Positions 5,488 through 62,170 of a DNA stretch of 64,000 bases are shown here, one piece after another. Location: the NCBI GenBank assembly GCA_027605045.1, contig JAQFWX010000036.1, positions 62,001-126,000 on the forward strand. Reading direction: 5' to 3'. The notes beneath the pieces were generated by a model, which did no database searches, had not been told where the DNA came from, and worked only from the letters and a program-made list of their open reading frames with translations. This DNA comes from Phallus indusiatus (lineage: Eukaryota; Basidiomycota; Agaricomycetes; Phallales; Phallaceae). Position 1 is the stretch's first letter. The number at the start of each line of letters is the position of its first letter. The position numbers and the translations under genes are program-made.

Positions 5488-8380
5488 TTACTTAGTCTCA
5501 TGAGCGTCGACTGATCCACCCCTTGCTTCATCGCCCCCTCCGTCCTTAACTTCAACATCCACTGCTTCATCATCCTCTGCTGTATGATAAGATATGGAGC
5601 TACCAGTATCTTGATCAGAATCTTGCAAAAAAGTGAGAAATTAATGCAGCAATTACGACTCAATTAGGCTCACCATTGGATACATCGCCTGATTCAACTT
5701 GAATAGGACATATCAAAGGCAGACCGCAAATACGAGCACCTTCATCGCTTTCTGGATCGATGCCCAGCACAGCATGAGCCTCCTGAATATACTCAAAATC
5801 TCTATAATCAATATTGAGCACACGGAGGGTTCGACGAATTTGAACTCTGAATGAGTTTGAGTCGAAACCGAAAGTCTCCATATCAGAATAATATAGTCTC
5901 TCGGACCCCGAACGATCAAGAGACCAGTATGTATCCAGCATTTCATCGCACACTGCTAGTTTCGAAATAAACAAGTATAACTCTTTATACCCGGAGGTTC
6001 CAACCGAACATCTGAGACTGGAAGGAATCTGGATGTGCCACGAGAATCCAGTAACTACATTGGCCGTATGTTTGGATAAAATCATCGATACAATGACACG
6101 ATAGTAGTGGAATTGGCATACCAACGCAAACATTACGAGCGCAATGATAACAAGACTCGTGCATTCCATCGGTTCTTGCAAGTAAGCAGCCAATTTGACT
6201 GACATATGCACAGGCCAATCGTTTCCAGGCAGCACCATTCGAATATCCAACATCACATTCAACCACCACTGTCTGGATATCGTCGATAGCCGAAATGCCT
6301 GCTGCATCTACAGGAATGCGAATCCTGAAAACATTCAGGTAATATTCAGTACCGCAACATGATGGGAAATGTGCTATACCTGAAATGTTCGCCACAATCA
6401 TCGACGGTCAATTTTGTATGCAGTATTTTATCACGAACAAACCAATCCAATGGTGATGATTCTTCGCATTGAATAAACCATAACATTGTTGTGTCCGAAG
6501 CGTCGAGTGTATCGTTGTGTCGATCGGCTAATAAAATATAACCAGTGTAGACAGAATATGTTGGTCCGGAGACGTCCTTCCATATATTGACACATATGAC
6601 ACGATAGAGATCCCATAAGAAAGAGGGGTCCAAGGAAACATTCGATCTTGGGAACAAACGCAGCATATTTACTCTTTCCATAATCTTGTTCGACTCTGGA
6701 GATATACCGTTAATACGTACCACCGTCCACTGAGTAGCAGGAACAACTTGTAGGATATTCGGCGACCATTCCTGATTTTGAAAAATGAATTCATAATAAT
6801 AAATTTTCATGTGTTTAGAGATGAAAAAAATGAACTAACAAATACGACAAGCACGCGTCCGTCTAGAACATTCACATAAGCAGAGGCAAGATATCCATCC
6901 TCACGGCCTTTGAAACCGATAAAATCGCGAAAGAATCTCAGATGCCGCCAAGATATAATGGCGTGGCGAGATATACCCTTTGCCACGTAGTCACAGCCTT
7001 CCTGTAAGCGTAAGGCAAACGGTAAGATACAAACAATTGGCGGAATCGTGGTCGGTTCAAGCTCACAAAATAAGACAAATCCTGAGATGTATTTGAAGAA
7101 GAAATTTCATCAAATATTGTGGCTACTCACTGCATGGCGCAAATCCATGTACCGACCCAATGTATCGTTGAATCTTGAACTAGATTGTTCAAACGGAATA
7201 CACCATGCTATATACATACAATAGTAAGTTTTAATTTTCATCCGTGAAGTGACATGAACGAACGGTTGTGAAAGACAAGGCCAGGGCTTTCTTTTGATGT
7301 GATTGTGCCGAATAGCTGCAACACATTTGGATGGCTTGCATGAAGAATGAGCTACAGTTTATAACTATTTCGCAAGAGACGAGTGTATTACCGAAATCGC
7401 GAATATAACTCCTTTTCTGCTTTGAATCTCTGTTGAAAGAATAAGAATAGATCGACAAAGTGGCAGTATTTTGTGACACGCACGGAATCAGCATCGTGGC
7501 CTTTGTAGACACGAACCATCCGTGTCTGACTCTCTTGTTTCCATCGGACCTCCCAGTGTTCAACTTCAACTTGTCCATTCGAGATATTCTTGAGCGCGTA
7601 TAAATCGCCCGGTCTGATTCTTTCGAACTGGCCACTTTCAGAAGAATTCAAAACACGAACGAGCAATCCGACTTACCCCAGAGTCCATGTTGCCTTGGAG
7701 ACGTATGACACCCGTAAACTAGATATAGGACTGGAATGAAACCAAGATCTGCGTCAGTATATTCGTGCCCACCATAAGATTGATCCGACACTCGTCTATC
7801 TGACTTTGATAACGTGTCAATGAATCTTTTTCACGTGCAGCTGCGAAATATTTCCGAAGGGGTTTCAGTTTAGATGATTTATTGAATGACTCGAGATCAT
7901 TTGAGATGGCTAGCAAGCATCTGTTTAAGTGGATTCAGGCTGGTAAGTTTCTTATATGAGCAGAATTGCATACCTGTAAAATTCTTCACAACCTTTCTCA
8001 AAGCTGTTGAATGAATCTGGCGCGGCTTCATAATCCTTTTCGGTTTCCTCATGAAGCAGTCGAAGAATATTCGTGACTTTGATTGTCAGAGTCTTGAAAT
8101 TGTCTCGGTTTTGTTTCATTTGCTTAATTTCTATCAGCATTCACGAGTCGAGATTCAATGACTGACTCACTTGGACAGGCTTTAGTAGAACCTTGACTAG
8201 TTCCGCTGCACCCTTTAGATATGGGAACGGTAGGAGACCCCCCACTACACTAGCTAATTCAGCAGCCCGGAAGGCGTTAGATACCCAGTCGGTTTCGCTC
8301 TGAGTAACAGATACTGCGGTTGAAGCTGATGCCTTATGTTCATTTTGGGGGATACGAGAGCTCTTCTTTTGAAAAACCAT
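5488..8380 (-). CDS. Array copy A: MLKL-NTD-like / pseudokinase-like protein
   Basis: Multi-exon gene read on the complement with the same 14-exon plan as copy B. Exon 1 (from ATG 8380) carries DWVSNAFRAAELASVVGG and PFPYLKGAAELVKVLLKP, the first helices of an MLKL/HeLo-like bundle. Exons 2-4 (about 8115-7690) complete the bundle. Exon 5 (about 7648-7507) has the kinase-like strand MVRVYKG, followed by HPNVLQLFGTITSKESPG. The micro-exon (DLSYF) lies near 7070. Exon 11 is about 6775-6387, exon 13 carries TYWSLDRSGSERL, and the last exon (5488-5621) is acidic and ends in HETK. I find no stop or frame break when the conserved splice sites are used. Exon 5 has an extra VE duplication (GQVEVEHWEV). 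Its closest relatives by eye are copies I and G, also on the minus strand. Product function unknown; membrane or cell-death activity is inferred from the N-terminus only. Confidence 0.75.
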
Positions 8381-8439
8381 ACCTGGAGATGGACCGTGTA
8401 TATGGGGTGAATCGATTCGTGCTGTTATTATTTATATAT

Positions 8440-8995: not shown

Positions 8996-8999
8996 TCAG

Positions 9000-11231: not shown

Positions 11232-14075
11232 ATGGGTTTTCGAAGGAAAAAATCTCCTAATACCCAAAAGGAGCCCGGGCCATCAGCTTCAACCACAGTT
11301 CTGCAAAAAGAAACCGACTGGGTGTCTAATGCTTTCCAAGTCGCTGAATTGGCTAGTGCGGCTGGCGGTCTTCTGCCATTCCCATATCTAAAGGGTGCAG
11401 CAGAGCTAGTTAAGACTCTGCTAAAGCCTATTCAAGTGAGTCAGCAATTGGATATATGGAACTCAGCTGATGAAGAATCAGCAAATGCAACAAAATCAAG
11501 ATAATTACAAGGAGCTAACAACTACTGTCACAACAACCCTGCAGATACTCCACGAAGAGACTAAGAAGAACTGCGAAACCGCGCCCTCGTTGGATTACTT
11601 TGAAAAAGATTGCGAAACATTTTACCGGTATGCAGTTCTGCTCCTATAAATACCGAGACCTGAATCCGTTCGAATAGATACTTGCAACACATATCCGACG
11701 ATCTCAAGTCATTCAATAAATCGGATAAACCGAGATTCCTTCGCGGTTATTTCACAGCTGATCGTGAAAAAGATTCGTTAGTGCGATATCAAAATGAGAT
11801 AGAAAAGTTTCGGCGTAATCTTATGGTGTGCACAAATATATTTGAAGCAGCTCTAATCTCATTCAGTGGCCTATCTAGTTTAGGGGAATGATACGTCTAC
11901 AAATAAGCAGCAACACAAACGAGATAGACTCTGATGTAAGTCGGGTTAGTCGTTCGTGTTCTGAAGTTTTCTGAAAGTAACCAGTTCGAAAGAATCAGAC
12001 TGGGCGATCTAAATGTACTTAAGAATAGCTCGAATGGACAAGTTGAACACTGGGAAGTACGGTGGAAACAAGAGAATCAGACACGGATGGTTCGTGTCTA
12101 CAAAGGTTGGGATGCTGATTCCGTGCGTGATGCAAAAAGATACTGCCCCTTCTTCGCTATATTCTCATACTTTCAACAGAAATTCAAAAAGGAAAAAGAG
12201 TGGTATTCACGATACCGGTAATACACTCGTCTCTTGTGGAAAAGTTATAAACGGTGGCTCATTCTTCGTGCAAGTCATCCAAATGTGTTGCAGCTATTTG
12301 GCACAATCACATCAAAAGAAAGCCCCGGCCTTATCTTTCACAACCGTTCGTTTATGTCACTTCACGAGATGAAAATCAAAACTTTACGATTTATGTATAT
12401 AGCGTGGTGTATTCCACATAAACAATTCGATTCAAAACATAGCGATGCATTGGGTCGGTACATAGATTTGCGCCTTGCAGTGAGTCATCACAATATTTGA
12501 TGAATTTTTTCCTCAAATACATCTCAGAATTGGTGCTTTTGTGTAAGCTTGAACCGACCACGATTCCGCCAATTATTGGTATCTCACCGTTTGCCTTCTA
12601 CTTACAGGAAGGCTGTGACTATGTGGCAGATGGTATATCTCACCACGCCATTATATCTTGGCGGCATCTGGAATTCTTTAGCACGTTTATCGGTTTCAAA
12701 GGCCGCGAGGATGGATATCTTGCCTCTTGTTATGTGAATGTTCTAGACGGACGCGGGCTTGTTGTATTTGTTAGTCCATTTTTCTCATTTCTAAACGCAT
12801 GAACGCATGGAGAATTATTATTGTGAATTCATTCTTCATTATCAGGAATGGTCGCCGAATATTTTACAAGTTGTCCCTGCTTCTCAGTGGACGACGACGC
12901 ATATTGACAATATGTCTGGAGAGGAGTTCACCAAGATTACGGAAAGAGTAGACATGCTGCATTTATCTGAAAAGTTGAATGTTCCTTTGGACCCTTTATT
13001 CTTATGGGACCTCTATTGTGTCATAAATGTCTTTAGATGGAAGGATGTCTCTGGACCAGCATATTCTGTCTACACCGGTGACATTCTATCAGCCGATATA
13101 CACAACAAAATACTTGACGCTTCGGACGCAGCTATATTAGGGCTTATTCCATGCAAAGATCCATTAGACTGGTTTGTTAGTAATAAAATACTGCATACAA
13201 AAGTGACCGTCGAAGATTGTGGTGAACATTTCAGGTATGACACGTTAATTCTTATCATGTAGCAGCACTGAATATCACTTGAATGTTTTCAGGATTTGTG
13301 TTCCTGTAGATACATCAGGTATTCAATCTACCTATGATCTCCAGACAGTGGTTGTTGAATGTGATGTTAAATATTTGGATCGTCCTGCCTGGGAACTATT
13401 GGTTGGCGCATATATCAGTCAAATTGGCTGCTTACTTGCACGAGCCGATGGAATGTATGAGTGTTGGAATGTTTGCGTTGGTACGTCAATTTCACTACTA
13501 TCGTGTCATTTGTATAGATGATTTATTCAAACATACGGTCGCTGTAGTTACTGGATTCTCGTGGCACATCCAGATTCCTTCCAGGCTCAGGTGTTCGGTT
13601 GGAAATTCTGGGTATAAGGAGTTATACTTCTTTATTTCAAAACCGGCAGTGCACGATGAAACGCTGGATACATACTGGTCTCTTGATTGTTCGGGGTCCG
13701 AGAGGCTATATTATTCTGATATGGACACCCACGGTTTCGACTCAAATTCATTCCGAGTTCAAATTCGTCGAACCCTCCGTGTGCTTAATATCAATTATGA
13801 CGCGTTTAATTATATTCAGGAGGCTCATGCTGTGTTGGGCATCAATCCAAAAAGCGATAAAGCTGCTCGTATTTGCGGTTTTCCTTTAATATGTCCTATC
13901 CAACCTGAATCAGGCGATGTATCCGACGGTGAGCCTAATTGAGTCGTAATTGCTGCATCAATTTCTCACATTTTCGCAAGATTCTGATCGAGATACTGAT
14001 AGCTCTGAATTTTATCATACAGCAGAGGATGAAGCAGAGGGTGGATCAGTCGACGCTTGTGAGACTGAGTATTAA
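11232..14075 (+). CDS. Array copy B: MLKL-NTD-like / pseudokinase-like protein, 702 aa
   Basis: Reference model. Exons: 11232-11435, 11482-11627, 11678-11825, 11879-11935, 11985-12122, 12180-12217, 12275-12345, 12403-12479, 12528-12542, 12608-12769, 12846-13234, 13293-13480, 13548-13928, 13981-14075; phases agree throughout and the sum is 2109 nt. Residues 1-166 form a predicted helical bundle (DWVSNAFQVAELASAAGG; PFPYLKGAAELVKTLLKP; then EKDCETFYRYLQHISDDLK) resembling MLKL_NTD/HeLo-type domains. Residues 186-267 look like a kinase N-lobe (MVRVYKG; FKKEKEWYSRYRHPNVLQLFG), with no glycine loop; I see no HRD or DFG later. Residues 299-352 and 353-545 are unknown. Residues 546-671 hold TYWSLDCSGSERL and INPKSDKAARICGFPL, a pattern I associate with uncharacterised agaricomycete proteins. 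The tail is acidic. A role in death signalling is inference. Confidence 0.8.
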
Positions 14076-16406: not shown

Positions 16407-19231
16407 ATGTGTTTTCGAAAGAAAAAATCTCTTAATCCTCAGAAGGAGCCCGGGCCATCAGCTTCCACCACAGTTCTACAAAAAGAAACCGACTGGGTGT
16501 CTAATGCCTTCCAAGTTGCTGAATTAGCTAGTGCGGCTGGCAGTCTTCTGCCATTCCCATATCTAAAGGGTGCAGCAGAGCTAGTTAAGACTCTCCTAAA
16601 GCCTATTCAGGTGAGTCAGCTATTAGATACATGGAACTCGACTGATGAGAAATCAGCAAATGCAACAAAACCAAGATAATTACAAAGAGCTAACAATTAC
16701 TGTCACAACAATCTTGCAGATACTTCATGAAGAAACTAAGAAGAATTCCGAAACCACGTCCTCATTGAATTACTTTGAAAAAGACTGTGAAACATTTTAC
16801 CGGTATGCAGTTCTGCTCGTATAAATATCAAGGCCTGAATCTTGTTCGAATAGATACTTGCAACACATATCTGACGATCTCAAGTCATTCAATAAATCGG
16901 ATAAACCGAGATTCCTTCGCGGTTATTTCACAGCTGATCGCGAAAAAGATTTATTAGCACGATATCAAAATCAAATAGAAAAGTTTCGGAGTAATCTTAT
17001 GGTGCGCACAAATATATTTGAAGCAGCTTTAATCTCATTCCAGTGCCACATCTAGTTTAGGGGAATCATACGCCTACAAATAAGCAGCAGCACAGATGAA
17101 ATGGACTCTGATGTAAGTCGGGTTAGTCGTTGGCATTCTGAAGTCTTCTGAAAGTGGCCAGTTCGAAAAAATTAGACTGGGTGATCTAAACGTGCTCAAG
17201 CATAGCTCGAATGGACAAGTTGAACACTGGGAAGTACGATGGAAACAAGAGAGTCAAACACGGATGGTCCGTGTCTACAAAGGTCGTGATGCTAATTCCG
17301 TGCGTGATACAAAAAGATACTGCCGTATTTTCGCTATATCTTATACTTTCAACAGAAATTCAAAGCAGAAAAGGAGTTGCACTCGCGATATCGGTAATAC
17401 ATTCGTCTCTTGTGGAATAGTTATCAACGGTAGCTCATTCTTCGTGCAAGTCATCCAAATGTGATGCAGCTATTCGGCATAATCACGTCAAAACACAGCC
17501 CTGGCCTTGTCTTTCACAACTGTTCGTTTATGTCACTTAACAAAATCAAAATTAAAACTTACTATATATGTACATAGCGTGGTGTATCCCATTCAGTCAA
17601 TTCAATTCAAGATTCAGCGATACATTGGGTTGGTACATGGATATGCGCTATACAGTGAGCTGCCACAATATTTGATGGAATTTCTTCTTAAAATATATCT
17701 CAGAATTTGTCTTTTTGTGTGAGCTTGAACCGACCACGATTCCACTGATTGTCTGTATCTCACCGTTTGCCTTACGCTTACAGGAAGGCTGTACCTACGT
17801 AGCAAAGGGTTTATCTCACCATGCCATTATATCTTGGTGGGGTCTGCAATTCTCTCGCCATTTTATCGGTTTCAAAGATCGTGAGGATGGATATCTTGTC
17901 TCTTGTTATGTGAATGTTCTAGACGGACGCGGGCTTGTCGAATTTGTTAGTTTGTTTTCTTTTTCATCTCAAAAAATGATTGCTATGAATTCATTCTTCA
18001 ATATCAGGAATGGTCGCCGAATATTCTACAAGTCGTCCCTGCTAGTCAGTGGGCGATGGTGCGTATTAGCACTCGAGAGGAGTCGGCCAAGATTATCGAA
18101 AGAGTAGACATGTTGCGTTTGTCTCCAAGGTCGAATGTTCCTTCGGATCCCTCTTTCTTATGGGATCTCTATGGTGTCATAGATGTCTTTATATGGAACG
18201 ACGTCTCCGGATCAGCATGTTCTGTCCACACCGGCGACATTCTTTTGGCCAATATACACAACGATACACTCGACGCTTCGGACGCAACTACATTAGGAGT
18301 TATTCCATGTGGAGAACCATCATCATTAGACTGGTTCGTTCGTAATAAAATACTGCATACAAAATTGACCGTCGAAGATTGTGGTGAACATTTCAGGTAT
18401 AGCACGTTTCCCATCGTGTAGCGGTACTGAATATCACTTGAATGTTTTCAGGATTCGCGTTCCTGTAGATACAGCGGGCATTTCGGCTACGGACGATCTC
18501 CAGACAGTGGTGGTCGAATGCGATGTTATATATTCGGATTATGCTTCCTGGGAACGATTGGCTCGTGCATATGTCAGTCAAATTGGCTGCTTACTTGCAA
18601 GAACCGATGGAACGCACGAGTCTTGTAAGGTTCACATTCGTAAGGTTTGCGTTGGTACGCCAATTCCACTACTATCATGTCATTGTATAGTTGATTTTAT
18701 CCAAACATACGGTCAATGTAGTTACTGGATTCTCGTGGCATATCCAGATTCCTTCCAGGCTCAGGTGTTCAGTTGCAACTTTTGAGTATACAAAGTTATA
18801 CTTCTTTATTTCGAAACCAGCGGTGCACAATGAAACGCTGGATACATACTGGTCTCTTGATTGTTCAGGGTCCGAGAGACTACATTGTTCTGATATGGAG
18901 ACCCTCGGTTTCGACTCCAACTCATTCAGAATTCATCGAACCCTCCGTGTGCTTAATGTTAATTATAGAGGGTTTGAGTATATCCAGGAGATTCACAATG
19001 TGTTGAGCATTGATCCAAACAGCGATGACGGTGCTCGTATTTTAGGTCTTCCTTTGATAATTCAACCTGAATCAGGCGATGTATCCGACAGTGAGCCTAC
19101 TTGAGTCGTAACTGATGCATCAATTTCTCACTTTTTCTCAAGATTCTGATCAAGATTCTGATAGCTCCATATCTTATCATACAGCAGAGGATGGAGCAGA
19201 GGATGAGCAGAGGATGAGCAGAGGATGTTGA
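16407..19231 (+). CDS. Array copy C: MLKL-NTD-like / pseudokinase-like protein
   Basis: Same exon plan as copy B, and close to it in sequence. I start at ATG 16407 (MCFRKKKSLNPQKEP), equivalent to the copy B start; the frame is open further upstream, but that part is the conserved promoter. Exon 1 ends at 16610. HPNVMQLFGIITSKHSPG is present, the micro-exon reads NLSFC (17705-17719), exon 10 has LSHHAIISWWG, and exon 13 has TYWSLDCSGSERL but lacks two residues near SFRIHRTLR. The last exon, from 19143, contains a tandem expansion of gaggatgagca units (19187-19228) that shifts the frame, so the tail ends early (HTAEDGAEDEQRMSRGC) at 19229-19231 instead of the SVDA-type end. Otherwise open. Confidence 0.7.
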
Positions 19232-22089: not shown

Positions 22090-24987
22090 ATGGTTTTTAA
22101 GAAGAAGAAGTCTCTTATCTCCCAGAAAGAACATGAGGCATCAGCCTCAACCGCAGTATCTGTTAAACAGAGCGAAACCGACTGGATATCTAATGCCGTC
22201 CAGGTTGTTGAATTGATAAGTGCGGTGGGGAGTTTTACACCATTCCCATATCTAAAGGGTGCAGCGGAGACATTCAAGGTTCTGCTAAAGCCTATCCAAG
22301 TGAGTCGGCCATTTGATCTCCACTCGTAATTGCTGATAGAAAATCAGCAAATGAAACAAAACCGAGACAATTATAAGACTCTGACAATGAAAGTCACGAA
22401 TATTCTCCGACTTCTTTTTGAGGAAACCGAAAAGGATTATGAAGCCGTGTCAGACTCATTTAACAGCTTTGAGAAAGGTTGTGAAGAATTTTACAAGTAT
22501 GCAATTCTGCTCATATAAGAAATTTACCAGCCTGAATCCACTTAAACAGATGCCTACGAGACATCTCAAATGATCTCGAGTCATTCAATAAACCATATAA
22601 ATTAAAACCCCTTCGGAGATATTTCGCAGCTGATCGTGAAAAAGATTCATTGGCACGTTATCAAAATCAGATAGACGAGTGTCGGATCAATCTTATGGTG
22701 CGCACGAATATGTTTGACACAGATCTTGGTTTCATTTCAGTCCTACATCTAGCTTAGGGGTGTGATACGTCTCCAAACAGGCAACAACACAGATGAGATG
22801 GACTCTGGTGTAAGTCGGATTGCTTGTCCGCATTTCGAAGTCTTCTGAAAGTGGCAAGTTCGAAAAAGTCAGACTGGGCGATCTAAACGTGCTCAAGAAT
22901 ATCTCGAATGGACAAGTTGAACACTGGGAGGTCCGATGGAAACAAGAGAGTCAGACACGGATGGTCCGTGTCTACAAAGGGCGGGATGCTATTTCCGTAC
23001 GTGACACAAAAATACTGCTCCTTCTTCGCTATATTCTCATACTTTCAACAGAAATTTAAAAAAGAAAAGGAGTGGTATTCGCGATATCGGTAATACACTC
23101 GTCTCTCATGAAACAGCTATCAATAGTAGCTCATTCTTCGTGCAAGTCATCCAAATGTGATGCAGCTATTCGGCATAATCACGTCAAAAGAAAGCCCTGG
23201 CCTTGTCTTTCACAACCGTTCGTTTATGTCATTTCACGAAATTCAAAATCCAAACTTACTGTTATATGTATATAGCGTGGTGTATTTCGAATGAAGAATA
23301 CCGTCATGGATTCAAAGATGTATTGCATCTATGCGTAGATGATTACCGTTTAGTGAGTTGTCACGCTATTGACAGCGACTTTTCCTTAAACACATACTAG
23401 GGAGCATCCTATTCTGTGAGCTAAAATCAATCATAATCTCATTCATTGCTTGTATCTCATCATCTACCATATGCTGAAAGGAAGGTTTACATTACTTGGC
23501 AGCCAACATATCTCACCACGCCTATTTATCATGGCAAAACCCGTCGTTCTCTTTTACGTTTGTCCGTTTCAAAGATCGTGAGGATGGATATCTTGGCCGG
23601 TATTATGTGGACCTTTCAGAAGGATATGGGGTGATTGCATTTGTTAGTTCACTTCTTTCGTCTCAAAATGCCTGCAATGATTATCTTGTGTTTCAATGTT
23701 AGGATTGGTCGCCGAAGATTCTACAAGATGTCCCTACTTATCAGTGGCAGTCTACAGCTATTGACAATAAACCTCATGAGCTCGCAAAGATTATCAAAAC
23801 GCTGGATTCGCCAGAAATGTCCAATACTCTTCCGGATCCATTGTCCTTATGGAATATGTATGGTGCAATACGCATTAATGTTTGGCAGGACGTCTCCGCA
23901 CCAGCATATTCGGTTTATATCGGCGACATTTTATTAGCTGATAAACACAACGATCGACTTGGAGCTTCGAATGCAGATTTATTAGGGTTTGTTCCATGTA
24001 AAGAAACATCGTCATGGGACTGGACCGTTCGCGATGAAAAGTTGCATACATACTTCAAAACGGCCAATAGGTTGGCCGTCGACAATTGCGGTGAATGTTT
24101 CAGGTATTACCTATTTTCCATTATGTAGCAGTACAAAACACTAATTTTATCGTAATGCCTTCAGGATTCGCGTTCCTGTGAATAGAGCGGGTGCGTTGAC
24201 TACGGAAGATCTCCAAACGGTGGTGATTGAATATGATATTCTATATTCGGATCGTGCGACTTGGGAACGATTGACTCGTGCATTTGTTAGTCAAGTTGGC
24301 TACTTGTATGCAAGAATCGATGGAATGCAGATCTTCAATAGAGTTTGCACCGGTGTGTCAATTTTACACGGGCTGTGGTCATCATAGAAAATTCTAAGCA
24401 AATGATCTCCTTAGTTACTGGGTTCTCGTGGCACCTCCAGATTCCCAAGAGGCTCGAATGTCCGACTGAAGCTTTCGAGCATAATGAATTATACTTCTTT
24501 ATTTCCAAACCGTCAGTACACGATGAAACACTGGATACGTATTGGTCTCTTGATCCTTCAGGATCCGAAAGGTTGGCTCGTTCCAATACCGACACCTTCG
24601 GTTTCGATCCCGGATCGTTCAGCATTCAAATTCATCGAACCCTTCGCGCGGTCTATGTTCATAGATACGACTTTGAGTTACTTTGGAATGGCCACGCGGT
24701 GTCAAATATCGATCCAGAAAGCAATAAAGCAGCTCGTATGTTGGGTCTTCCTTTGATTCAGCTTACTAGATCCTGCGATGTATCAGACAGTGAGCTCACT
24801 TCAGTCGTATCCGATACATCAACTGATTTTCCTTTTGAAAGTTTTCGAGGATATCGTCCTTATTGGGGAGGATGAAGCAGAGTCGGTCGATGTTCCTGAG
24901 AACATTTCACCTGACATTCAAACTTATCCCACGACGAAATACTTCTATTCTGATTCAATCACGGACAAGACGTGCGCCTTTGAATAA
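22090..24987 (+). CDS. Array copy D: MLKL-NTD-like / pseudokinase-like protein
   Basis: Open through all 14 exons. Exon 1 is 22090-22299 (VFKKKKSLISQKEHEAS; ETDWISNAVQVVELISAVG), exon 2 starts at 22348, and exon 3 (about 22553-22695) includes PLRRYFAADREKDSLARYQ. Kinase-like pieces MVRVYKGRDA and HPNVMQLFGIITSKESPG follow. The micro-exon is GASYS. D belongs with E and F in a second subtype: LHLCVDDYRL in exon 8, EGLHYLAANISHHAYLSWQ in exon 10, VVIEYDILYSDRATWERL in exon 12. The tail exon starts after gaaag (24840) and reads FEDIVLIGEDEAESVDVP; the final residues and the stop (24985-24987) lie in, or next to, sequence from a LINE fragment, so the C-terminus seems to have been rewritten by the insertion. 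Reading through without the last intron would end at 24875 instead. Confidence 0.72.
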
Positions 24988-25194: not shown

Positions 25195-25265
25195 AACAAA
25201 ACCAAGAATAACGTTTGCCGGACTCGATGACGATAACGCTGGACTCCCGAAAAGCAGACATTTGG
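25195..25265 (-). pseudogene. Small Arp9-type N-terminal relic
   Basis: The complement reads SSVIVIESGKRYSW, matching the starts of Arp9-type relics 1 and 2 (VIVIKS...RYI). About 20 codons only. Confidence 0.35.
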
Positions 25266-25420
25266 TATTTCACAGAGCAGGTTTTGACTAAATAACAATG
25301 GTCCATAGACTTCACTCAGGCTCAATTCAAAGTACGGCTACTTTGAAATTTCTGAGATTTCATCATACTCTGTCAAATTTATATTACTGGGGTATTGTTA
25401 TTTAAAAGTGCATTCTACTA

Positions 25421-28258: not shown

Positions 28259-28597
28259 GGCGGAACTGGAAAAGGAAGGAAATAAGGGAGAACGATCGAA
28301 CGACTCGAGAACGAATATTTCATTTTAGCGCGTGGGTATCAACACCATCATCATCAGTGACCGTATGAGAAATTTCACGAGGGCACCATTATATTTATTC
28401 AATGGCACAATAGTATCAAAACTAGATTTCATCTAAATGGGGAGCATCTCTTAATATGCGTAAGTAAAGTTACTTGTAGCACACAGAGCAAAGTCAGTAA
28501 ACATTTTTAAATTTGTAGATGCCCGAAGGGAAGAAACGCCCTTCATTTTTTAGAAATATTCGAATAAGCAAGAATTTCCTTCATTTTCCACAACGCT

Positions 28598-43344: not shown

Positions 43345-46150
43345 ATGCTCGCTTTCTGGAAGAAACGATCTCTTAACGTTAACCCCCAGCAATATCATAA
43401 TAGGGCCATACCCGTAATACGGAATGAAAGTGACCGGTATCCAATGCTTTCCGGGTTGCTGAATTGGCTAGTGCGGCCGGGCCGCCGGGGGGCTTCTACC
43501 ATTCCCATATCTGAAGGGCGCAGCAGAGTTAGGCATGACACTGCTCAAGCCTATTCAAGTGAGTCAGCCATTGAGTATGGAACTTAACTCGTAAGTGCTG
43601 ATGAGTTTAAATCAGCAAATGCAACAAATAAAGACGGTTACAAGACTCTAATCAATGTCACAACTATACTCCAATTACTCCATCATGATGAGAGATCAAG
43701 AAGGGTTCCGAAACCGTGTTCTCGTTCAATTATTTTGAACAGGATTGTGAAATCTTCTACCGGTATGAGATTCTGCCGTAATAGATATATCAGGGCTTCG
43801 GCTTACCGGTCTGAATCTGTTCAAATAGATACCTAGAAAACATTTCAAATGACCTCAAGTCATTCAATCATAAACCAGAGAAATCAAGATTCCTTCGGAG
43901 ATACCTCACAGCTGATAATGAAAGAGATCGTTTAGTTCGTTATCAAAATCAGATAGCGGAGTTTCGAAACAACCTTATGGTGCGCATAAACATACTTGAC
44001 GCAACCTTTCGTCTCATTCGTGTCCCATGCCTAGCTCAGGGGTCATACGTCTACAAATAGGCAACCATACAGATGACACGGACTCGTATTGGTCGCCCGC
44101 ATTTTGATGTCTTTTAAAAGTAACTGGTTCGAAAAAATCAGACTCGGTGACCTAAATGTGCTTTGGAGTAGCTTGAATGGGCAGGTTGAGCACTGGGAAG
44201 TCCGATGGAAACAAGAGAGTCAGACGCGGATGGTTCGCGTCTATAGAGGCGAGAATGCTATCCTCGTACGTGGTACCAAGAAATACTATCGCTTCTTTTC
44301 GCTATGTTAATTCTGTATGTTTTACAGAGATTTAAAGCAGAAAAAGAATGGTATTCGCTATATCGGTAATACACTAGTCTCTTCTGAAATAACTATAAAG
44401 AATAGCTCAATCTTCATGTAAGTCATCCGAAAATGATGCAGTTATTCGGTTTGCTCACGTCCAAAGAAAGCCCTGGTCTGGTCTTTCACAACTGTTCGTA
44501 TCCAACGCTTTAAGGTATCAAAATCAAAACTTAACATTATATGACGTATATGGCGTGGTGTATTCTGCTCGATGAATACGATCGAAAACGTGGCGATGCA
44601 TTGTGTTTGTACACAGATGATTACCATATAGTGAGTTGTCACGATGTTTAATAGTAACAATTCCTTCTCAAAACACTTGTCAGGGATCGTCTTATGCTGT
44701 GAGTCTGAGAATATCATACTCAGTCCCATTTATTGCTCATCATCTGCTTTCTCCTTACAGGAAGGTTTACATTACGTGGCGACTAGTATATCTCACAACG
44801 CCTATTTATCATGGGAAAATGCACCATTCTCTTCCACATATATTGGTTTCAAAAATTGTGAAGATGGATATCTTGGCTGTCATTGTGTAAACCTTTTGAA
44901 CGGGTGCGGTGTTATTGCGTTTGTCAGTTCAATTTCTCATGAGAAACGCATGAGATGATTACCTTGGATTTAGGAATGGTCTCCGAATATTCTACAAGAT
45001 GTCCCCACGTATCAGTGGCAGTCTACAGCTATCGATAATGAACCCCATGAACTGGCGAGGATTATCGAAACGCTGCGTTCTTCAGAACAACCCAATATCT
45101 CAGACTCACTGTTCCTATGGAGTTTGTGCGGTGCAATACGTATTTATGTTTAGCGCGACGTCTCCGCACCAGCATATTCTATCTACACTGGGGACATCCT
45201 ATTAGCTGAAAAACGCAATGGTCGTCTTGAGGCTTCGAATGCAACTGTATTGGGGTTCATTCCATGCGAAGAGCCATCATCAGTGGCCTGGTTCGTTCGT
45301 GATGAAAAGTTGCATACATACTTCAAAACGGCGAATAGACTGTCTATCGAAGGTTGTGGCGAGCATTTCAGGTATGGCGTACTTTCACCCATAACGGCAT
45401 TGAGAACCAAATTTATCGCAACGGTTTTAGGATTTGCCTTCCTGTGGATACAGCAGGTGTTTCGGCTACCAAGGATCTCCAAACATTGGTGATCGAATAC
45501 GATATTTTTTATTCGGACCATACTGGTTGGGAACGATTAACTCGTGCATATGTCAGTCAAGCTGGTCACTTACACGCAAGAATCAACGGAATATGCACTT
45601 TTAATAGGTTTTGCGCCGGTATGTCAGTTTCACTGTCATAGAAGATTCTATCTGAGGGCGCTGATTCCATAGTAACTGGGTTCTCGTGGCACCTCCAAAT
45701 TCCTACCAGACTCGGACATTCGGTTGGATCTTCTGAGTGTAATGAACTATACCTCTTTATTTCAATACCATCACTCCACGATGAAACCCTGGATACGTAC
45801 TGGTCTTTTGATCCTTCGGGATCCGACAGGCTAGACTGTTCTGATACCGACACTTTTGGTTTCGATCCAAAATCATTCAACATTCAAATTTTTCGAACTC
45901 TCCGTGTAATCGATTTCTATAGGGATGACCTGGAGTTACTTCTGAATGCTTACGTGATGTCGAATATCGATCCTGAAAGCAATGAAGCTGCTCGTATTTT
46001 GGGTCTTCCTCTAATGTGTCTTCAACATACCAGTGGACTAGGCAACATATCGGACGGTGGGCCTGCTTCCAAATCGTGTCGTAATTGCTGCATAGATTTC
46101 TTACTTTTCTGATCTAATCAAGATACTGCTAGCTCCTATTATACAGTGGA
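43345..46150 (+). pseudogene. Array copy F: degraded pseudogene
   Basis: Aligned to D and E throughout but broken repeatedly. Exon 1 changes frame after NESD and again in a GC-rich run near 43475-43495. Exon 2 loses bases after caaatgcaacaa and reads into a stop. Exon 11 has a nonsense codon at 45151-45153 where D has the Trp of NVWQDVS. Retained landmarks include MVRVYRGENA, micro-exon GSSYA, TSISHNAYLSWEN, VIEYDIFYSDHTGWERL, and a C-terminal domain with TYWSFDPSGSDRL and IDPESNEAARILGLPL. The relative preservation of the C-terminal exons suggests recent death or gene conversion. Confidence 0.8.
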
Positions 46151-47258: not shown

Positions 47259-50105
47259 CTACTCAATCTCACAAGCATCCACTGATTCATCTGCTTCGTC
47301 CTCTGCTGTATGATAGTCTTCAGAGAGGCTATCCGTATCTTTATCAGAACCTTGCAAAGAGTAAAAAATTAATCCAGCAATCATAATCCAGGTAGGCTCA
47401 CCGCTGGATGCATTGCCTGGTTCAGGTTGAATAGGACATACTAAAGGGAGACCTAAAATATGGGCAGCTTCATCACTTTCTGGACTGATACCCAACACAG
47501 CGTGAGCACGCTGGATAAACTCAAAACCATCAACACCGATACCAAGAAAACGGAAGGTTCGATGAATTTGAACTTTAAATGAGTTTGAATCGAAACTGAG
47601 GGTGTCCATATCGGAACAATATAGTCTCCCGGACTCCGAAGGATCAAGAGACCAGTATGTATCCAGCGTTTCATCGTGCACTGCTGGTTTCGAAAGAAAG
47701 AAGTATAACTCTTTATACTCGGAATTTTCAACCAAACACCTGAGCCTGGAAGGAATTCGGATGTGCCACGAGAATCCAGTAACTACAGTGACAGTATATT
47801 TATTTAGATAAGATCATTTTTACAATGACACGATAGTAGTGGAATTGGCGTACCAATGCAAGCCTTACTAACACAAACCTTACTAGACTCGTGCGTTCCA
47901 TCGATTCTTGCAAGTAAGCAGCCAATTTGACTAACATATGCACGAGTCAATTGTCCCCAGGCGGCACGATCCGAATATCTAACATCGCATTCAACCACCA
48001 CTGTCTGGAGATCGTCGGTAGCCGAAATGCTTGCTGTATCTACAGGAACGCGAATCCTGAAAACACTAAAGTTAATATTCAGTGCATGATGGAGAACATG
48101 CTATACCTGAAATGTTCACCACAATCTTCGACGGTCAATTTTGTATGCAATATTTCATCACGAACCAACCAGTCCGATGATGATGGTTCTTCACATGGAA
48201 AAAACCCTAATATAGCTGCATTCGATGCGTCGAGCGTATCGTTGTGTTCATCAACCAATAGAATGTCACCAGTGTAGATTGGATATGCTGGTCCGGAGAC
48301 GTCCTTCCATGTAAAGACATCTGTGGCACCATAAATATCCCATAAGAAAGAGGGGTCCGAAGCAACATTCGACTTTTGAGACAAACGCAGCACGTCTACT
48401 CTTTCCATAATCTTGGCCAACTCCTCTTGAGATATCATGCTAATACGCACCCTCTGCCACTGAGCAGCAGGGACGACTTGTAGAATATTCGGCGACCATT
48501 CCTGAATTCACAATAATAACTTTTCATGCGTTTAGAGATGAGAAAAATGAACTAACAAACGAGACAAGCCCGTGTCCGTCTAGAACGTTCACATAACCAG
48601 AGGCAAGATATCCATCCTTACAGTCTTTGAAACCGATAAACGTGCGAGAGAATGACAGATCCCGCCAAGATAAAATGGCATGATGAGATAGACTTTCTCC
48701 CACATATCGTAAGCCTTCCTGTAAGCAGGGGGCGAACAATGATACTACAATCAGTGGACTCGTGGTCGGTTCAAGCTCACATTTAAAAACGACCTCTGGG
48801 ATGTGTCTGAGAATAAAATTTCATCAAATATTGTGACAACTCACTGCATGGCGCCGATCTATGTACCGACCTAAAGCATCGCCTAGTCTTGGATTGAATT
48901 GATCAAATGGAATGCACCACGCTATATATGTATAATAGTAAGTCTAAATTTTCATTTTGTGAAGTGACTTAAACGAACGGTTGTGGAAAACAAGGCCAGG
49001 GCTTTCTTTTGATATGATTACACCGAACAGTTGCATCACATTTGGATGACTTGCACAAAGAATGAACTACCATTTATAACCTATGTCATAAGAGACGAGT
49101 GTATTACCGATATCGTGAATACCACTCCTTTTCTGCTTTAAATTTCTGTTGAAAGTAAAACATTATAGCGAAAAAGGAGTAGTATTTTTACCACGCACGG
49201 AAATCGTATGCCGACCTTTGTAGACACGGGTCATCCGTGTCTGACTCTCTTGTTTCCATTGGACTTCCCAGTGTTCAACTTGTCCATCCGAGCTTTTCTT
49301 GAGTACTTTTAGATCACCCCGTCTGATTTTTGTGAACTGCCCACTTTCAGAAGACTTCAGAACGCAAACGAACAATCCAACTTACATCAGGGTCCGTCTC
49401 CTCTGTGTTGTTGCCCATTTGGAGACGTATGACACCCCTGAGCTAGATATGAAACTGGAATGAAACCAAGATCTGCGTCACATATATTCGTACGCACCAT
49501 AAGATTGCTCCGAAACTCTTCTATCCGGGTTTGATAACGTGCCAATAATTCTTTTTCACGATCAGCTGCGAAATATTTCCGAAGGAGTTTCGATTTATAT
49601 GGTTTATTGAATGATCGGAGATCGTTTGCGACGTGTTGTAAGTATCTGTTTAAATGGATTCAGACTGGCAAGTATCTCATGCGAGCAGAATTGCATACTG
49701 GTAGAAGTCTTCACAACCTTTCTCGAAGCTATTAAATGAGTCGGACGTGATTTCATAATTCTTTTCGGTCTCCTCATGAAGTATTTGGAGAATAGTTGTG
49801 ATTCTGACTGTCAGAGTCTTATAATCATACTGATTTTGTTGCATTTGCTAATTCTCTATTAGGACTCACGAGTTGAGATCCAATGGCTGACTCACTTGGA
49901 TAGGCTTTAGCAGAACCTTGACTAGCTCCGCTGCACCCTTTAAATATGGGAATGGGAGGAGACCCCCCACCGCACTAGCCAATTCAGCAGCCCGGAAGGC
50001 GTTAGATACCCAGTCGGTTTCGCTCTGCATAACGGATACTATGGTTGAAACTGATGCCTCATGTTCTTTCTGGGGGATAAAAGACCTCGTCTTCTGAAAA
50101 CCCAT
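47259..50105 (-). CDS. Array copy G: MLKL-NTD-like / pseudokinase-like protein
   Basis: Complement strand, open through all family exons. ATG 50105 (MGFQKTRSFIPQKEHEAS), ETDWVSNAFRAAELASAVGG, then exons 2-4 at about 49850-49388. Exon 5 reads FTKIRRGDLKVLKKSSDGQ with MTRVYKGRHT, so this copy has Thr in place of Val before RVYKG. HPNVMQLFGVIISKESPG follows. The micro-exon reads RSFLN (near 48785). Exon 11 is 48499-48112 approximately, with DVSGPAYPIYTGDILLVDE. Exon 13 includes TYWSLDPSESGRL and ISPESDEAAHILGLPL. The acidic tail ends DESVDACEIE at stop 47259-47261. Convergent with F and divergent from H. Same inferred role as copy B. Confidence 0.74.
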
Positions 50106-50999: not shown

Positions 51000-51198
51000 G
51001 CTTGGATAAAGTTCTAGCAGAGTCCCGACTAGCTCTGCTACACCCTTGAGATATGGGAGTGGCAGAAGCTCCCGCTGCATTAGCCAGTTCAGCGACCCTC
51101 AAGGAATTTGATACCCAATCAATTTCGTTGGTATAATAGTATGGCACTATGTTCCTGGGGGCTACATGTACAATTTTTCCTATTTGAAAAACAACCAT
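51000..51198 (-). pseudogene. Array relic: exon 1
   Basis: The complement starts with ATG (MVVFQIGKIVHVAPRNIV), then NEIDWVSNSLRVAELANAAG, and loses frame at ASATPISQGCSRAS, which is the PFPYLKGAAE segment in another frame. It shares derived substitutions with the relic at 21150-21345. Exons 2-14 are absent. Confidence 0.6.
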
Positions 51199-51552: not shown

Positions 51553-54436
51553 ATGAATTTTCGGAAGAAAAGGTCTAGTCCCCAAAAGGAGCGTGAGGCA
51601 TCAGCTTCAGCTGCGATACCTGCTACGCACAATGACATCGACTGGGTATCTAATGCTTTCCAGGTGACTGAATTGGCTAGTGCGGCGGGGAGCCTTCTGC
51701 CATTCCCATATCTGAAAGGTGCAGCAGAAATAGTAAAGACTTTGTTGATGCCTATCCAAGTGAGTCGGTTATTAAATATGTGGAAGTTGACTAGGACTGT
51801 TAAGTACTCATGAAATCAGCAAATACAACAGAACCGAGGCGATTATAAGATTTTGGCTATTAATATCACGGCTATTCTTCAAATACTTCACGAGGAAACC
51901 AAAAAGCATCATGAAACTGCGCTCTCATTAAACTACTTCGAGAAAGATTGTGAAACCTTTTACCGGTATGTAGTTCTTCTACTCATATAAAATGCCTACT
52001 AATCTGAATCCATTCATACGGATGCTTGCAACGCATTTCAAACGATCTCAAGTCATTCAATAATAACCCAGATAAATCAAGACCCTTTCGGAGATTTTTT
52101 TTCGCTGATCGTGAAAAAGATTATTTAGCACAGTATCAAAACGAAATAGAAGAGTTTCAAGAGAATCTTCTGGTGCGCACAGGTTTATTTGATGTAGCCT
52201 TCAATCTCATTTCAAGTCTCATATCAATTCAGCTCAGGGGGGTTATATGTCTACAAATAAGTGGCACGAACGAGATGGCCTCTGATGTAAGTCGGATTGG
52301 TCGTCTGCATTTTCTAACTTTCTGAGATTCACAAGTTCAAAAAAATTCGACTTGGCGATCTATACGTACTTAGGAGCAGCTCGAGCGGGCAAGTTGAACA
52401 TTGGGAAGTTCGATGGAGACATGAGACTCAAACGCGGATGGTCCGTGTCTACAAAGGTCAGAATGCTACCCTTGTGCGTCGTGCCAAAAAAATATTGCCG
52501 CCTTTTTGTTGTGTTAGTCTTATACTTTCAGTAGCAATTCAAAGCAGAAAAAGAGTGGTACTCGCGTTATCGGTAATGCACTCGTCGTTTTGTGAGTAGT
52601 CACAAACGCTAACTCAAACTTCATGCAAGCCATCCAAACATGATGCAGCTATTCGGTTTAATCACATGCAAAGAGAGCCCTGGCCTTGTCTTTCACAACT
52701 GTTCGTTTACTCGTCACTTGTAGAAATCAAAGCCTGGATTTACCGTTATACGTATATATAGCATGGTGTATTCCGCGTAAAGAATATTTTCGAAGATTCG
52801 TCGACCCGTTGCGTTTGTGCGCTGATCATCACCGTTTAGTGAGCTGTCATGTTTATTGATGGCGATTTTTCCTTTTGACACATCCTAGAAATCATGCTTT
52901 GATGTGAGCTTGAATCTATCATGATTCCCTTCGTGTTGTATCTCATCGTTCACATTCTGCCTACAGCAAGGCTTACATTATATAGCAACCAGTATATCTC
53001 ACCATGCCCTATTATCATGGCGAGATTGTCGGTTCATTGGCCTATTTGTCGGTTTCGAAAATCGTGACGACGGATATCTTGGCCGTACTTATGTGAACAT
53101 TTTAGATGGACGCGGAGTTGTTGCATTTGTTAGTTCATTTTCTCATTGCGAAGCGCGTGAAAAAAATACCTTGAATTTGAATTTCAGGAATGGTCGCCGA
53201 AGATTATACGAGACATCCCTATTTATCACCGTCGTAGCATGGTTATTGACATAAAACCTCTTGAGGACTTGGCAAGGATTGTTGAAACAGTGGTAGACAT
53301 GCTGCGTTTGTTCAAACAATCCGGTACTACTACTCTGCTAAAACCGAAGTTCTTACGGGACTTCTATGGTGCCATAAATGTTTCGATTTTCCAAGACGTC
53401 TCCGCACCAGCATATCCTGTCCACACTGGTGACATTCTATTAGTTGACGAACACACCGATGCACTTGACACTTCAAATGCAGCTATGATGGGGTTTATTC
53501 CATGCGAAGAACCATTATCATTGAGATGGTTCATTCGTAATGAAAAATTACATACATACTTCGAAACGGAGAATAAATTGTCTGTCGAAGATTGTGGTGA
53601 ACATTTCCGGTATGGCATATTTTCATTATGTGGCAACACTGGATATCTTCCTTATCGCAATGTTTTCAGAATTTGCCTTCCTGTGGATACAGTAGGTATT
53701 TCAGCTAGCGAAAATATCCAGACAGTTGTGATTGAATGCGATGTTCTATATTCACGTCGTGCTACTTGGGCACAATTGGCTCGTGCATATGTCAGTCAAA
53801 TCAACTACTTACACGCAAAATTTGGTAGAAGGCGAACACGCGCCTCCAATAGTTATTATGCTGGTATGTTAACTTCACGATTGTCATGATGAAAGAATTT
53901 ATTCAAACATATGGGTCCCATAGTAACTGGGTTCTCATGGCACTTACAGATTCCTATCAGGCTCAGATGTTCCGTTGGAAATTCTGAGCATAAAGAGTTA
54001 TATTTCTTTATTTCAAAACCAACGGCACACGATGAAACACTGGACACATATTGGTCTCTTAATCTTTCGGGGTCTGAAAGGCTGAACTGTTCTGATATCG
54101 ACACCCTCGGTTTTAATTCAGAATTATTGAACATGAAATTTTTTCGGACCCTCCGTGGGTTTTATGTTTCAAAGGACCACTTTCACTCAATCTGGGACGT
54201 GCACAATGCGTTGAATATCGATCCAGCAAGCAATGAGGGTGCTCGTATTTTAGGTCTTCCTTTAATACGCACCATTGAAGCTGAATCAGGAGATGGATCA
54301 GACGGTGGGCCTACTTGAGTTCTTAGTTGCTGCATCAGTTTCTTACTTTCTGAAAGATTCTGAACAAGATGATACTTGTAGCTCCGAGTCTTACTATACA
54401 GCAAAGGACGGAGCAAATGATGAGAGGGTGGATTAA
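51553..54436 (+). CDS. Array copy H: MLKL-NTD-like / pseudokinase-like protein
   Basis: Open through the 14-exon plan and the most diverged intact copy. ATG 51553 (MNFRKKRSSPQKEREAS), DIDWVSNAFQVTELASAAG, exon 3 with RRFFFADREKDYLAQYQ. The exon 6 acceptor appears shifted 3 nt to ttcagtag, which avoids an in-frame tag. HPNMMQLFGLITCKESPG; micro-exon KSCFD; exon 10 QGLHYIATSISHHALLSW; exon 11 from 53188; IQTVVIECDVLYSRRATW; exon 13 TYWSLNLSGSERL and IDPASNEGARILGLPL. The exon 13 donor is gtgggc. Tail: DSEQDDTCSSESYYTAKDGA, then stop 54434-54436. Exons 8 and 10 follow the D/E/F subtype while exon 12 is closer to A/B/C, which suggests a mosaic. Same inferred role as copy B. Confidence 0.74.
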
Positions 54437-56887: not shown

Positions 56888-57638
56888 CTAATTATTGTGC
56901 GAATAGTGGATGGCATCAGCTCGTCGTTTCCGCAATTTCGTGTCGTCGTCCTTTTCTTTCTTGACCGGCGCAGGGGTGATCTCAGTCTCCTCCGCATCTT
57001 CCAAAAGCTTCTCTCTTTTCTTCTTCTGGTCAAACTGCAAGCGTGTGCCCTTCGGAAGACGCGATTTGTCTTCACGCGACTGCCATATAATAAACAAGAT
57101 ACCCTCAGTCGCAGCGAGCATCAGTGCAACCGATAGAGCGAATAAAGCTCGCTAGCATCTCGTCAGTCAAAATCCCGCGTGCATTTTAATATATATCTCA
57201 TACCCATTCATCTCGCCAGCCAACATGTTTACTGGCCCACCAACTCGCAAAGCCCGTTCCTCCGATGCTGAAAAGAGCATTGACAAGCCCGATAATCGCT
57301 CTCCTATCACTCAGATTCTTGTGTGCTGTTTCCGCGGGATCCTCCGGAGATTCGTACTTTGGAAATTTCGAAAGAGGGGATGTGATTGTTCCGGAAAGAA
57401 GTGAAATCATGGCATAGTCATTCGCGTTCAGCTGTTTTCCGGCAAGTTGTTTACGAGCATCTTCCGTCCGAGCCCATTGCGAGATTTTTAGGAGGATTGC
57501 ATAGGATAATTCTACTTGATTTTTGAGCGGAACTGATAGCGCATCCTTTAATTCGTCCGGTAAAAGATCAACTACGACCTCGAGTTTTTCAGCCAAATGC
57601 TGTGGAATAGAAACGGTCGTGGTGGTCAATTCTGACAT
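56888..57638 (-). CDS. VMA12: V-ATPase assembly factor Vma12/Vph2-like, copy 1
   Basis: ER membrane protein that with Vma21 and Vma22 assembles the V-ATPase Vo sector. Exon 1 is 57204-57638 (145 codons, MSELTTTTVSIPQHLAEKLE) and exon 2 is 56888-57151 (acceptor gctag), giving 232 aa. The soluble part has PDELKDALSVPLKNQVELSY and QLAGKQLNANDYAMISLLSG. Two membrane segments, AIIGLVNALFSIGGTGFASW and ALFALSVALMLAATEGILFI, with RAIIGLVNALFSIGG typical of the family, are followed by a charged tail ending LRKRRADAIHYSHNN. Complete and in frame. Its start faces fragment X, about 50 bp upstream. A second copy lies at 63134-63862; this one keeps the longer C-terminus. Confidence 0.88.
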
Positions 57639-57689
57639 AGTGAAAGAAAGACGGTAAGAAAGAAAAAGGAGTGTCTTTGTCGTTCAAGG

Positions 57690-59250: not shown

Positions 59251-62170
59251 TTACTCAGTCTCATGAGCGTCGGCTGATCCACCCTCTGCTTCATCGCCCC
59301 CTCCGTCTTCTGCTTCAGCATCCTCTTCGTCATCCTCTTCATCCTCTGCTGTATGATAAATTTCGGAGCTATCAGAATCGTGATCAGGATCTTGTGAAAA
59401 AGTGAGAAATTGATGCAGCAGTTACGACTCAATTTAGGCTCACCGTCGGATACATCGTCTGGTTCAGGTTGAATAGGACATATTAAAGGAAGACCGCAAA
59501 TACGAGCACCTTCATCGCTTTTTGGATCGATGCCCAACACAGTGTGAGTCTTTTGGATAAACTCAAAAGCTTCATAAGAAACGCTGAGCACACGGAGGGT
59601 TCGATGAATTTGAACTCTGAATGAATTTGAGTCGAAACCGAGGGTGCCCATATCAGAACAGCATAGTCTTTTGGACCCCAAACGATCAAGAGACCAGTAT
59701 GTATCCAGCATTTCATCGCGCACTGCTAATATCGAAATGAAGAAGTATAACTCTTTATACCCGGAAGTTCCAATCGAACACCTGAGCCTGGAAGGAATTT
59801 GGATGTGCCACGAGAATCCAGTAACTACATTGACCGTATGTTTGAATAAAATCATGTATACAATGACACGATAGTAGTGGAATTGGCGTACCAACGCAAA
59901 CCTTACTAAGGCAAACCTCACAAGACTCGTGCATTCCATCGGTTCTTGCAAGTAAGCAGCCAATTTGACTGACATATCCACAAGCCAATCGTGCCCAGGA
60001 AGCATAATCCGAATATTCAACATCACATTCAACAACCACTGTCTGGAGATCGTCGATAGCCGAAATGCCTGCTGTATCTACAGGAACGCGAATCCTGCAA
60101 ACATTCAAGTGATATTCAGTACCGTTACATGATGGGAAACGTGCTATACCTGAAATGTTCACCACAATCTTCGATGGTCACCTTTGTATGCAGTATTTTA
60201 TCACGAACAAACCAATACAATGGTGATGATTCTTCGCATTGAATAAACCCTAATATAGTTGCGTCCGAAGCGTCGAGTGTATCGTTGTGTCCATCGGCTA
60301 ATAAAATATAACCAGTGTAGACAGAATATGTTGGTCCGGAGACGTCCTTCCATATATTGACACATATGGCACGATAGAGATCCCATAAGAAAGAGGGGAC
60401 CAAGGGAACATTCGATCTTGGGGACAAACGCAGCATGTTTACTCTTTCCATAATCTTGTCCGACTCCTTTGGAGATATATTGGTAATACGCACTCTCATC
60501 TGCGGAGTAGCAGGGACAACTTGTAGAATATTCGGCGACCATTCCTGATATTGAAGAAGAATTCACAATAATAATTTTTCATGCGTTTAGAGATGAGAAA
60601 AATGAACTAACAAATACGATAAGCCCACGTCCGTCTAGAATGTTCACATAACAAGAGGCAAGATATCCATCCTCTCGGTCTTTGAAACCGATAAAATTGC
60701 GAGAGAATTCCAGATCCCGCCAAGATATAATGGCATGGTGAGATATACCCTCTGCCACGTATTCACAGCCTTCCTGTAAGCAAAAGGCAAACGGTGAGAT
60801 ACAAACAATTGGCGGAATCGTGCTCGGTTCTCACAGAAAAAGACAAATTCTGAGATGTATTTGAAGAAGAAATTTCATCAAATATTATGGCGACTTACTA
60901 CATAGCGCGAATCTATGTACCGACCCAATGTATCGCTGAATCTTGAATTGAATTGAGAAAATGGGATACACCAGGCTATATACATGAATAGTAAATCTGA
61001 ATTTTCATTTCGTGAAGTGATATAAACGAACGGTTGTGAAAGACAAGGCCAGGGCTTTCTTTTGACGTGATTATGCCGAATAGCTGCATCACATTTGGAT
61101 GACTTGCACGAAGAATGAGCTGCCGTTTATAATTATTTCACAAGAGACGAGTGTATTACCGAAATCGCGAATACCACTCCTTTTCGTTTTTGAATTTCTG
61201 TTGAAGTATAAAAATATAGCGAAAATGCGGCAGTATTTTTTTGTCACGTACGGCACTAGCATCCTGGCCTTTGTAGACACGAACCATCCGTGTCTGACTC
61301 TCTTGTTTCCATCGGACTTCCCAGTGTTCAACTCGCCCAATCGAGATATTTTTGAGCACATTTAGATCCCCCCGTCTGATTCTTTCAAACTGGCCACTTT
61401 CAGAAGACGTCGAAACGCGAGCAAGCGATCTAACTTACATCCGAGTCCATCTCATCTGTGTAATTGCCTATTTGGAGACGTATCACACCCCTAAGCTAGA
61501 CGTAGAACTGGAATAAAACCGAGATCTGTGTCAAATATATTCGTGCGCACCATGAGATTGATCCGACACTCGTCTATCTGACTATGATAACGTGCCAATG
61601 AATCTTTTTCACGATCGGTTGCGAAATATCTCCGAAGGAGTTTTGATCTATATGGTTTATTGGAAGACTCGAGATTATCTGAGATGTCTCGCAAGCATCT
61701 GTTCAAGTGGATTCAGACTGGTAAATATCTTATATGAGCAGAATTGCATACCTGTAAAATTCTTCACAACCTTTCTTAAAGCTGTTGAACGAGTCTGACG
61801 CGGCTTCATAATCATTTTCGGTTTCCTCATGAAGCATTTGGAGAGTATTTGTGACTTTGACTGTGAGAGTCTTATAACCAACTTGGTTTTGTTTCATTTG
61901 CTTATTTTCATTTTCTATCAGCGCTCACAAGTCGAGGTCTGATGACTGACTCACTTGGATTGGCTTTAGCAGAACCTTGACTAGTTCCGCTGCACCCTTT
62001 AAATATGGGAATGGTAGGAGACCCCCCACCGCACTAGCTAATTCAGCAGCCCGGAAGGCGTTGGATACCCAGTCGGTTTCGCTCTGCATAACAGATACTG
62101 CAGTTGAAGCCGACGCCTCATGCACATGTTCATTCTGGGCGATAAGAGATCTCTTCTTCTGAAAACCCAT
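59251..62170 (-). CDS. Array copy I: MLKL-NTD-like / pseudokinase-like protein
   Basis: Complement strand, open through all family exons. ATG 62170 (MGFQKKRSLIAQNEHVHEAS), ETDWVSNAFRAAELASAVGG, exon 3 with RRYFATDREKDSLARYHS, exon 5 FERIRRGDLNVLKNISIGR with MVRVYKGQDA, HPNVMQLFGIITSKESPG, micro-exon NLSFS (near 60845), exon 8 with LGRYIDSRYV, exon 11 about 60545-60156, and exon 13 with TYWSLDRLGSKRL and IDPKSDEGARICGLPL. The tail (59251-59390) is the longest and most acidic of the family (EDEEDDEEDAEAEDGGGD), ending DAHETE. Very similar to copy A over exons 11-13. A 330-codon frame reading through two introns at 60035-59043 is not the product. Same inferred role as copy B. Confidence 0.76.

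Follow-up and report, generated by a model that had tools for sequence, protein, structure and literature searches.

The array of related genes in a stretch of DNA from the fungus Phallus indusiatus raises the question of what is done by proteins that join a helical N-terminal region, a kinase-like segment and a long C-terminal half, and of how such a family is renewed. The window analysed here is the whole stretch of 64,000 nucleotides (nt), comprising positions 62001-126000 of contig JAQFWX010000036.1 (designated C136) of assembly GCA_027605045.1 (67.2 Mb, 206 contigs). A sequence-only reading of this window had proposed an expanding array of genes with an MLKL/HeLo-like N-terminus and a degenerate kinase-like lobe, and had suggested a cell-death or allorecognition locus. 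The chief new result of the present analysis is that the front of these proteins is conserved, while the back is variable and exchangeable between copies.

Nine homologous copies are present at the positions and on the strands proposed by that reading, with pairwise blocks of 150-300 nt that are 61-94% identical, far above chance, and one splice model of 14 exons and 13 introns was applied to all. Copy B (11232-14075, plus strand, 702 amino acids (aa)), the reference for residue numbering, was spliced by hand from an alignment of the nine stretches, and its junctions were then projected onto the other copies, with a shift of up to 3 nt allowed to reach GT or AG. The introns of copy B are 46-76 nt long and the phases of the model are 0,2,0,0,0,2,1,0,0,0,2,1,1. 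In seven of the nine copies the model reads from ATG to stop without interruption (701-729 aa): the intact copies A (5488-8380, minus, 721 aa), B, C (16407-19231, plus, 701 aa), D (22090-24987, plus, 724 aa), G (47259-50105, minus, 711 aa) and I (59251-62170, minus, 729 aa), and the open copy H (51553-54436, plus, 711 aa). The starts and stops of all seven agree to the base with those given earlier. GT-AG borders were found at every projected intron of the seven, with the sole exception of the acceptor of intron 2 in copy H, which is not AG in the model. Copies E (39849-42656, plus) and F (43345-46150, plus) are broken by frameshifts and stops in the projected model. When loci fetched from elsewhere in the assembly were included, 19 of 24 modelled copies were open and five were broken. 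The splice model is backed by P0002, a 424-aa relative in a public collection (E 2.9e-43, 67% identity across 88% of 123 searched residues), which is without introns and continuous across junctions 9/10 to 13/14; this intron-free reading suggests that P0002 comes from a transcript. The summed span of the nine copies is approximately 25.7 of 64 kb, or 40% of the window rather than most of it as had been stated, and instead of at least three relics tblastn of the window outside the copies gave one, an exon 1 piece from the N-terminal part (51012-51171, minus).

The rates of change in the two halves were compared among 19 intact copies (seven from the window, seven from elsewhere on C136 and five from contig C184), which give 171 pairs. 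The ratio of nonsynonymous to synonymous substitution rates (dN/dS) was 0.25 (95% bootstrap interval 0.20-0.32) over residues 1-267 versus 0.63 (0.54-0.72) over residues 268-671, a difference between halves that was reached in 0 of 500 permutations. In copy B, the N-terminal half consists of exons 1-3 (11232-11825, residues 1-166, the helical N-terminal region, dN/dS 0.24) and exons 4-7 (11879-12344, residues 167-267, a linker and the kinase N-lobe-like segment, dN/dS 0.26), and the C-terminal half takes up the remaining part of exon 7 and all exons through 14 (12345-14075, residues 268-702) and includes an acidic tail. Pairs drawn from a single clade of the N-terminal half, with D and H excluded (66 pairs), gave 0.27 for residues 1-166, 0.26 for residues 167-267 and 0.70 for residues 268-671, and since these pairs keep the contrast, saturation in the N-terminal half is not its cause. 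The N-terminal half is strongly constrained and the C-terminal half changes fast.

The two halves also differ in their histories. In the tree of the N-terminal half, eight copies group together as a clade (support 99/97), which is rejected by the C-terminal half in the approximately unbiased test (p-AU 6e-72, not a blind p-value, as the group was named from identities with those of the C-terminal half in view). The C-terminal half likewise gave a p-AU of 3.6e-5 for the N-terminal grouping of copy I with C136_153, and of 0.028 for that of copy A with C184_887. A two-parent scan in 200-nt steps identified D as a chimera that resembles I up to approximately 1.2 kb from its ATG and E over the remainder. 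Copy I is itself chimeric, being like C136_153 in its 5' part and C184_933 in its 3' part, with the change of partner approximately 1.2 kb from the ATG, and C184_887 has a less plain shift at approximately 1.2 kb. The switch point lies in or near exon 8, immediately past the kinase-like segment. The C-terminal half, which had been proposed as a candidate sensor, behaves as the variable part.

The copies in the window belong to a larger family. A search of the assembly with the C-terminal exon gave at least 79 matches, merged to at least 74 places (30 on C136, 36 on C184 and eight on other contigs, all lower bounds), and at 69 of the 74 places exon 13 is accompanied by exon 1, which matches 1.2-4 kb upstream in the same orientation. 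To the left of the array, part of a sulphite-reductase-like gene is found at two places in the assembly, its own and one on C184 (96% identity). The left flank beside copy A (window positions 1-4528) is 95% identical to C184:880233-884835, and the right flanks of C136 and C184 are 95% identical over 9.3 kb. C136 and C184 carry the same region in two versions, which we infer to be the haplotypes of a dikaryon, both present in the assembly. DNA queries of 10-14 kb against the assembly missed their own place, and two also missed the C184 counterpart at the expected place; a 2.1-kb query from one of the regions so missed recovered both its own place and the C184 counterpart.

Between the shared flanks, family exons mark 15 copies on C136 versus 12 on C184, which bears out the high copy turnover proposed earlier. 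Counterparts assigned by position are 84.0% (B), 88.7% (C), 89.6% (C136_145) and 97.4% (C136_160) identical, as measured by local BLAST with some flanking DNA included, and identities over the gene are 93% (G), 98% (D) and 99% (E). The counterpart of F on C184 is a small remnant only. That of B is mixed, resembling A over its first 1.2 kb (0.85-0.96 in each 200-nt step) and B in its final step (0.94 versus 0.88 for A), so that it is an allele of B by position only. With the measured counterparts 84-99% identical, flanks 95-96% identical and copy numbers of 15 and 12, the locus is dynamic and not uniformly divergent; the comparison between strains that had been suggested is represented here by two haplotypes of one genome, between which the locus is neither invariant nor divergent throughout.

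The MLKL/HeLo-like N-terminus of the sequence-only reading was retained in its helical character. Helical (100-degree) periodicity exceeded strand-like periodicity in 14 of 15 18-residue steps starting at residues 19-145, and strand-like periodicity exceeded helical in six of eight steps starting at residues 163-226. The family assignment found no such backing, as no MLKL, HeLo or HeLo-like family was present among the Pfam and PDB matches listed at E up to 10 (the best 60 of 64 PDB matches of a five-copy profile, and the best 25 of 31 Pfam families for seven N-termini, with HMMER filters discarding most Pfam matches above 0.1). HeLo-type Pfam profiles gave no match among those listed for the seven N-termini, nor for five full-length copies (all eight families), and these five copies likewise had no Pfam match to the NACHT or NB-ARC domains of NLR proteins. 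The N-terminal Pfam matches listed were all below cut-off and belonged to helical or unrelated families (COG3_N, Med11, Dor1, BAR_3 and others). The region is thus MLKL/HeLo-like by pattern only. We do not assign the family to MLKL or to HeLo; it may act like them.

Among basidiomycete NLRs, passages of PMC9815663 give the Goodbye/HeLo/MLKL-like superfamily as the commonest class of N-terminal domain, describe an additional N-terminal helix in the basidiomycete MLKL-like (BaMLKL) members and place the BaMLKL annotations themselves just under threshold. The present family shares an N-terminal helical domain with these, and an extra helix at approximately residues 28-46 before the next at approximately 52-72 was read by eye from the sequence. 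It differs from BaMLKL, as far as described there, in having no profile match and in its fusion partners, a kinase-like piece followed by a new C-terminal half, where BaMLKL is fused to a NACHT/NB-ARC ATPase or stands alone.

The kinase-like lobe was upheld by profile matches to kinase N-lobes. Residues ~179-316, which include an RHPN...QLFG stretch, matched A-Raf (E 0.0012), the Src-Abl ancestor (E 0.0021), KSR2 (E 0.005) and ABL (E from 0.015) when the five-copy profile was compared with PDB sequences. A kinase C-lobe was not recognised, the PDB matches listed ending by residue 322, and Pfam gave no kinase match above cut-off and one below cut-off in two of five copies. The beta-3 lysine of kinases is aligned to Arg222 (with Src-Abl) or Arg219 (with A-Raf), each an arginine in 19 of 19 copies. 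Because 18 of 19 copies retain Lys225, near the beta-3 place, the beta-3 lysine has been lost only likely, not certainly. Two glutamates, Glu236 and Glu238, do not vary, and most copies read SHHA where HRD aligns. The segment is probably degenerate.

The order of a helical domain followed by a kinase-like piece is shared with animal and plant MLKL, which part of PMC12881547 describes as a four-helix bundle plus pseudokinase. The family differs from those proteins in that only N-lobe-like sequence was recognised and in having approximately 400 extra unlike residues, at least 74 places in two haplotypes and no sequence match to MLKL among those listed. Kinase or pseudokinase domains are also joined to some fungal HELL domains (PMC12881547), and the likeness to these fusions, known by description only, lies in the two-part idea; the passages of that source that deal with them describe neither diversification nor swapping of a C-terminal half.

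The C-terminal half had no Pfam family above cut-off. The model of its relative P0002, a partial one of middling quality, contains mixed strands and helices and gave no confident structural match. A second relative, P0001 (hypothetical protein FB451DRAFT_1404676 of Mycena latifolia), has a kinase N-lobe-like segment (29.1 bits) and then the C-terminal tail (12.0 bits), in the order found here, but approximately 170 fewer residues between the matched parts and no match to the N-terminal domain of the family. Its predicted model is too poor over the kinase-like segment to judge a second lobe. P0001 ends in a predicted hydrophobic helix (residues 432-458; block means of the predicted local distance difference test 76-91), as opposed to the acidic Asp/Glu/Ser tail of the Phallus family.

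The explanation that we prefer, at a probability of about 0.45, is a multigene family whose single-chain proteins each combine a sensor with a response part, renewed by birth-and-death and tail swapping, with a role that is probably in cell death or immunity. In this reading the helical part would be an MLKL/HeLo-type membrane-acting bundle that the kinase-like segment holds in check, and the variable half would sense ligands, be they microbial, viral or non-self host products. The binding of such a ligand would free the bundle for oligomerisation, with the hyphal compartment killed or walled off, and duplication, loss and tail swapping would renew the sensor repertoire. The basidiomycete MLKL-like domains and the fungal HELL-kinase fusions described above make this plausible. 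A more specific form of the explanation is doubtful: a non-NLR immune repertoire in a mushroom-type fungus, with tens of single-chain receptors in each haplotype. Recombination at the module boundary would there join a single conserved 5' death module, made up of a helical executioner and a kinase-like switch, to interchangeable, fast-evolving 3' sensor halves. Several observations weigh against the sensor-plus-response explanation, namely the lack of an MLKL or HeLo family among the matches listed, the near identity of the haplotype counterparts of D, E and C136_160, and the retention of Lys225, which may mean that the kinase-like piece is not dead. This last doubt leaves the odds of the explanation as they are, since they do not depend on whether the beta-3 lysine has been lost. 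P0001 also tells against it, as a kinase-like piece and tail can exist without the N-terminal domain. This relative, together with N-terminal matches that are below cut-off and to helical or unrelated families only, would suit a kinase-like scaffold family that signals, for example in development or stress, has expanded in this lineage, has no killing role and uses its N-terminus only to oligomerise. The fast evolution and tail swapping seen here are unusual for conserved developmental scaffolds, and such a family is somewhat unlikely.

A dispensable family evolving by largely neutral birth-and-death, with a relaxed C-terminal half and chimeras produced by ordinary gene conversion, would account for the five broken copies among 24. 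It is also compatible with windows 281-310, 361-390 and 511-530, where point dN/dS is 1.0-1.5 with intervals that include 1; these lack significance as a sign of positive selection, and they leave room for relaxed constraint in the C-terminal half, a further point against a sensor. That account is nevertheless rather improbable, given a full open reading frame (ORF) over 14 exons in 19 of the 24 copies, a C-terminal dN/dS below 1 (upper bound 0.72) and the strong constraint on the N-terminal half. The allorecognition (somatic incompatibility) locus of the sequence-only reading, in which C-terminal alleles would distinguish self from non-self mycelia and death would follow, is weak and the least probable of these accounts. 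The two haplotypes, the only ones compared, do differ in copy number, F is reduced to a remnant on one of them, and B, C and C136_145 are less alike than the flanks; D, E and C136_160, however, are more alike than the flanks, and G is at 93%. Haplotypes that share the cytoplasm of a dikaryon would, moreover, have divergent versions tolerated together, and 74 places far exceed the three to five loci suggested for basidiomycete incompatibility in part of PMC8229728. The 74 places suit the detection of microbes or foreign matter better than allorecognition, for which so few loci are suggested, and the haplotypes of a dikaryon would have to tolerate each other's copies.

What triggers fungal cell-death sensors is given as a major open question in PMC12881547, and non-self recognition in basidiomycetes is described as poorly understood in PMC8229728. 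The family offers a concrete set of testable candidates, with a conserved front that may kill, a variable back that may sense, natural chimeras in which the two are already swapped and two haplotypes of one genome unlike in copy content.

Other features of the window and its surroundings were also recorded. A 3.1-kb segment (25208-28334) is 93% identical to C184:781001-784139 and to C36:59337-62476, both near other family copies, which suggests that neighbouring DNA moves along with the genes. A VMA12-like ORF (Pfam below cut-off) occurs twice on the minus strand, at 57198-57683 beside copy I and at 63422-63907 beside the next copy rightward, and the pair looks like a duplicated unit carrying a bystander gene. 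Three tandem M20-peptidase-like genes lie in the middle of the array (29145-38619, minus), and Pfam M20_dimer was found in one of two ORFs tested. A stretch of approximately 1 kb in the region of the sulphite-reductase-like gene (C136:55670-56742) has 90% identical copies on contigs C74, C78 and C88.

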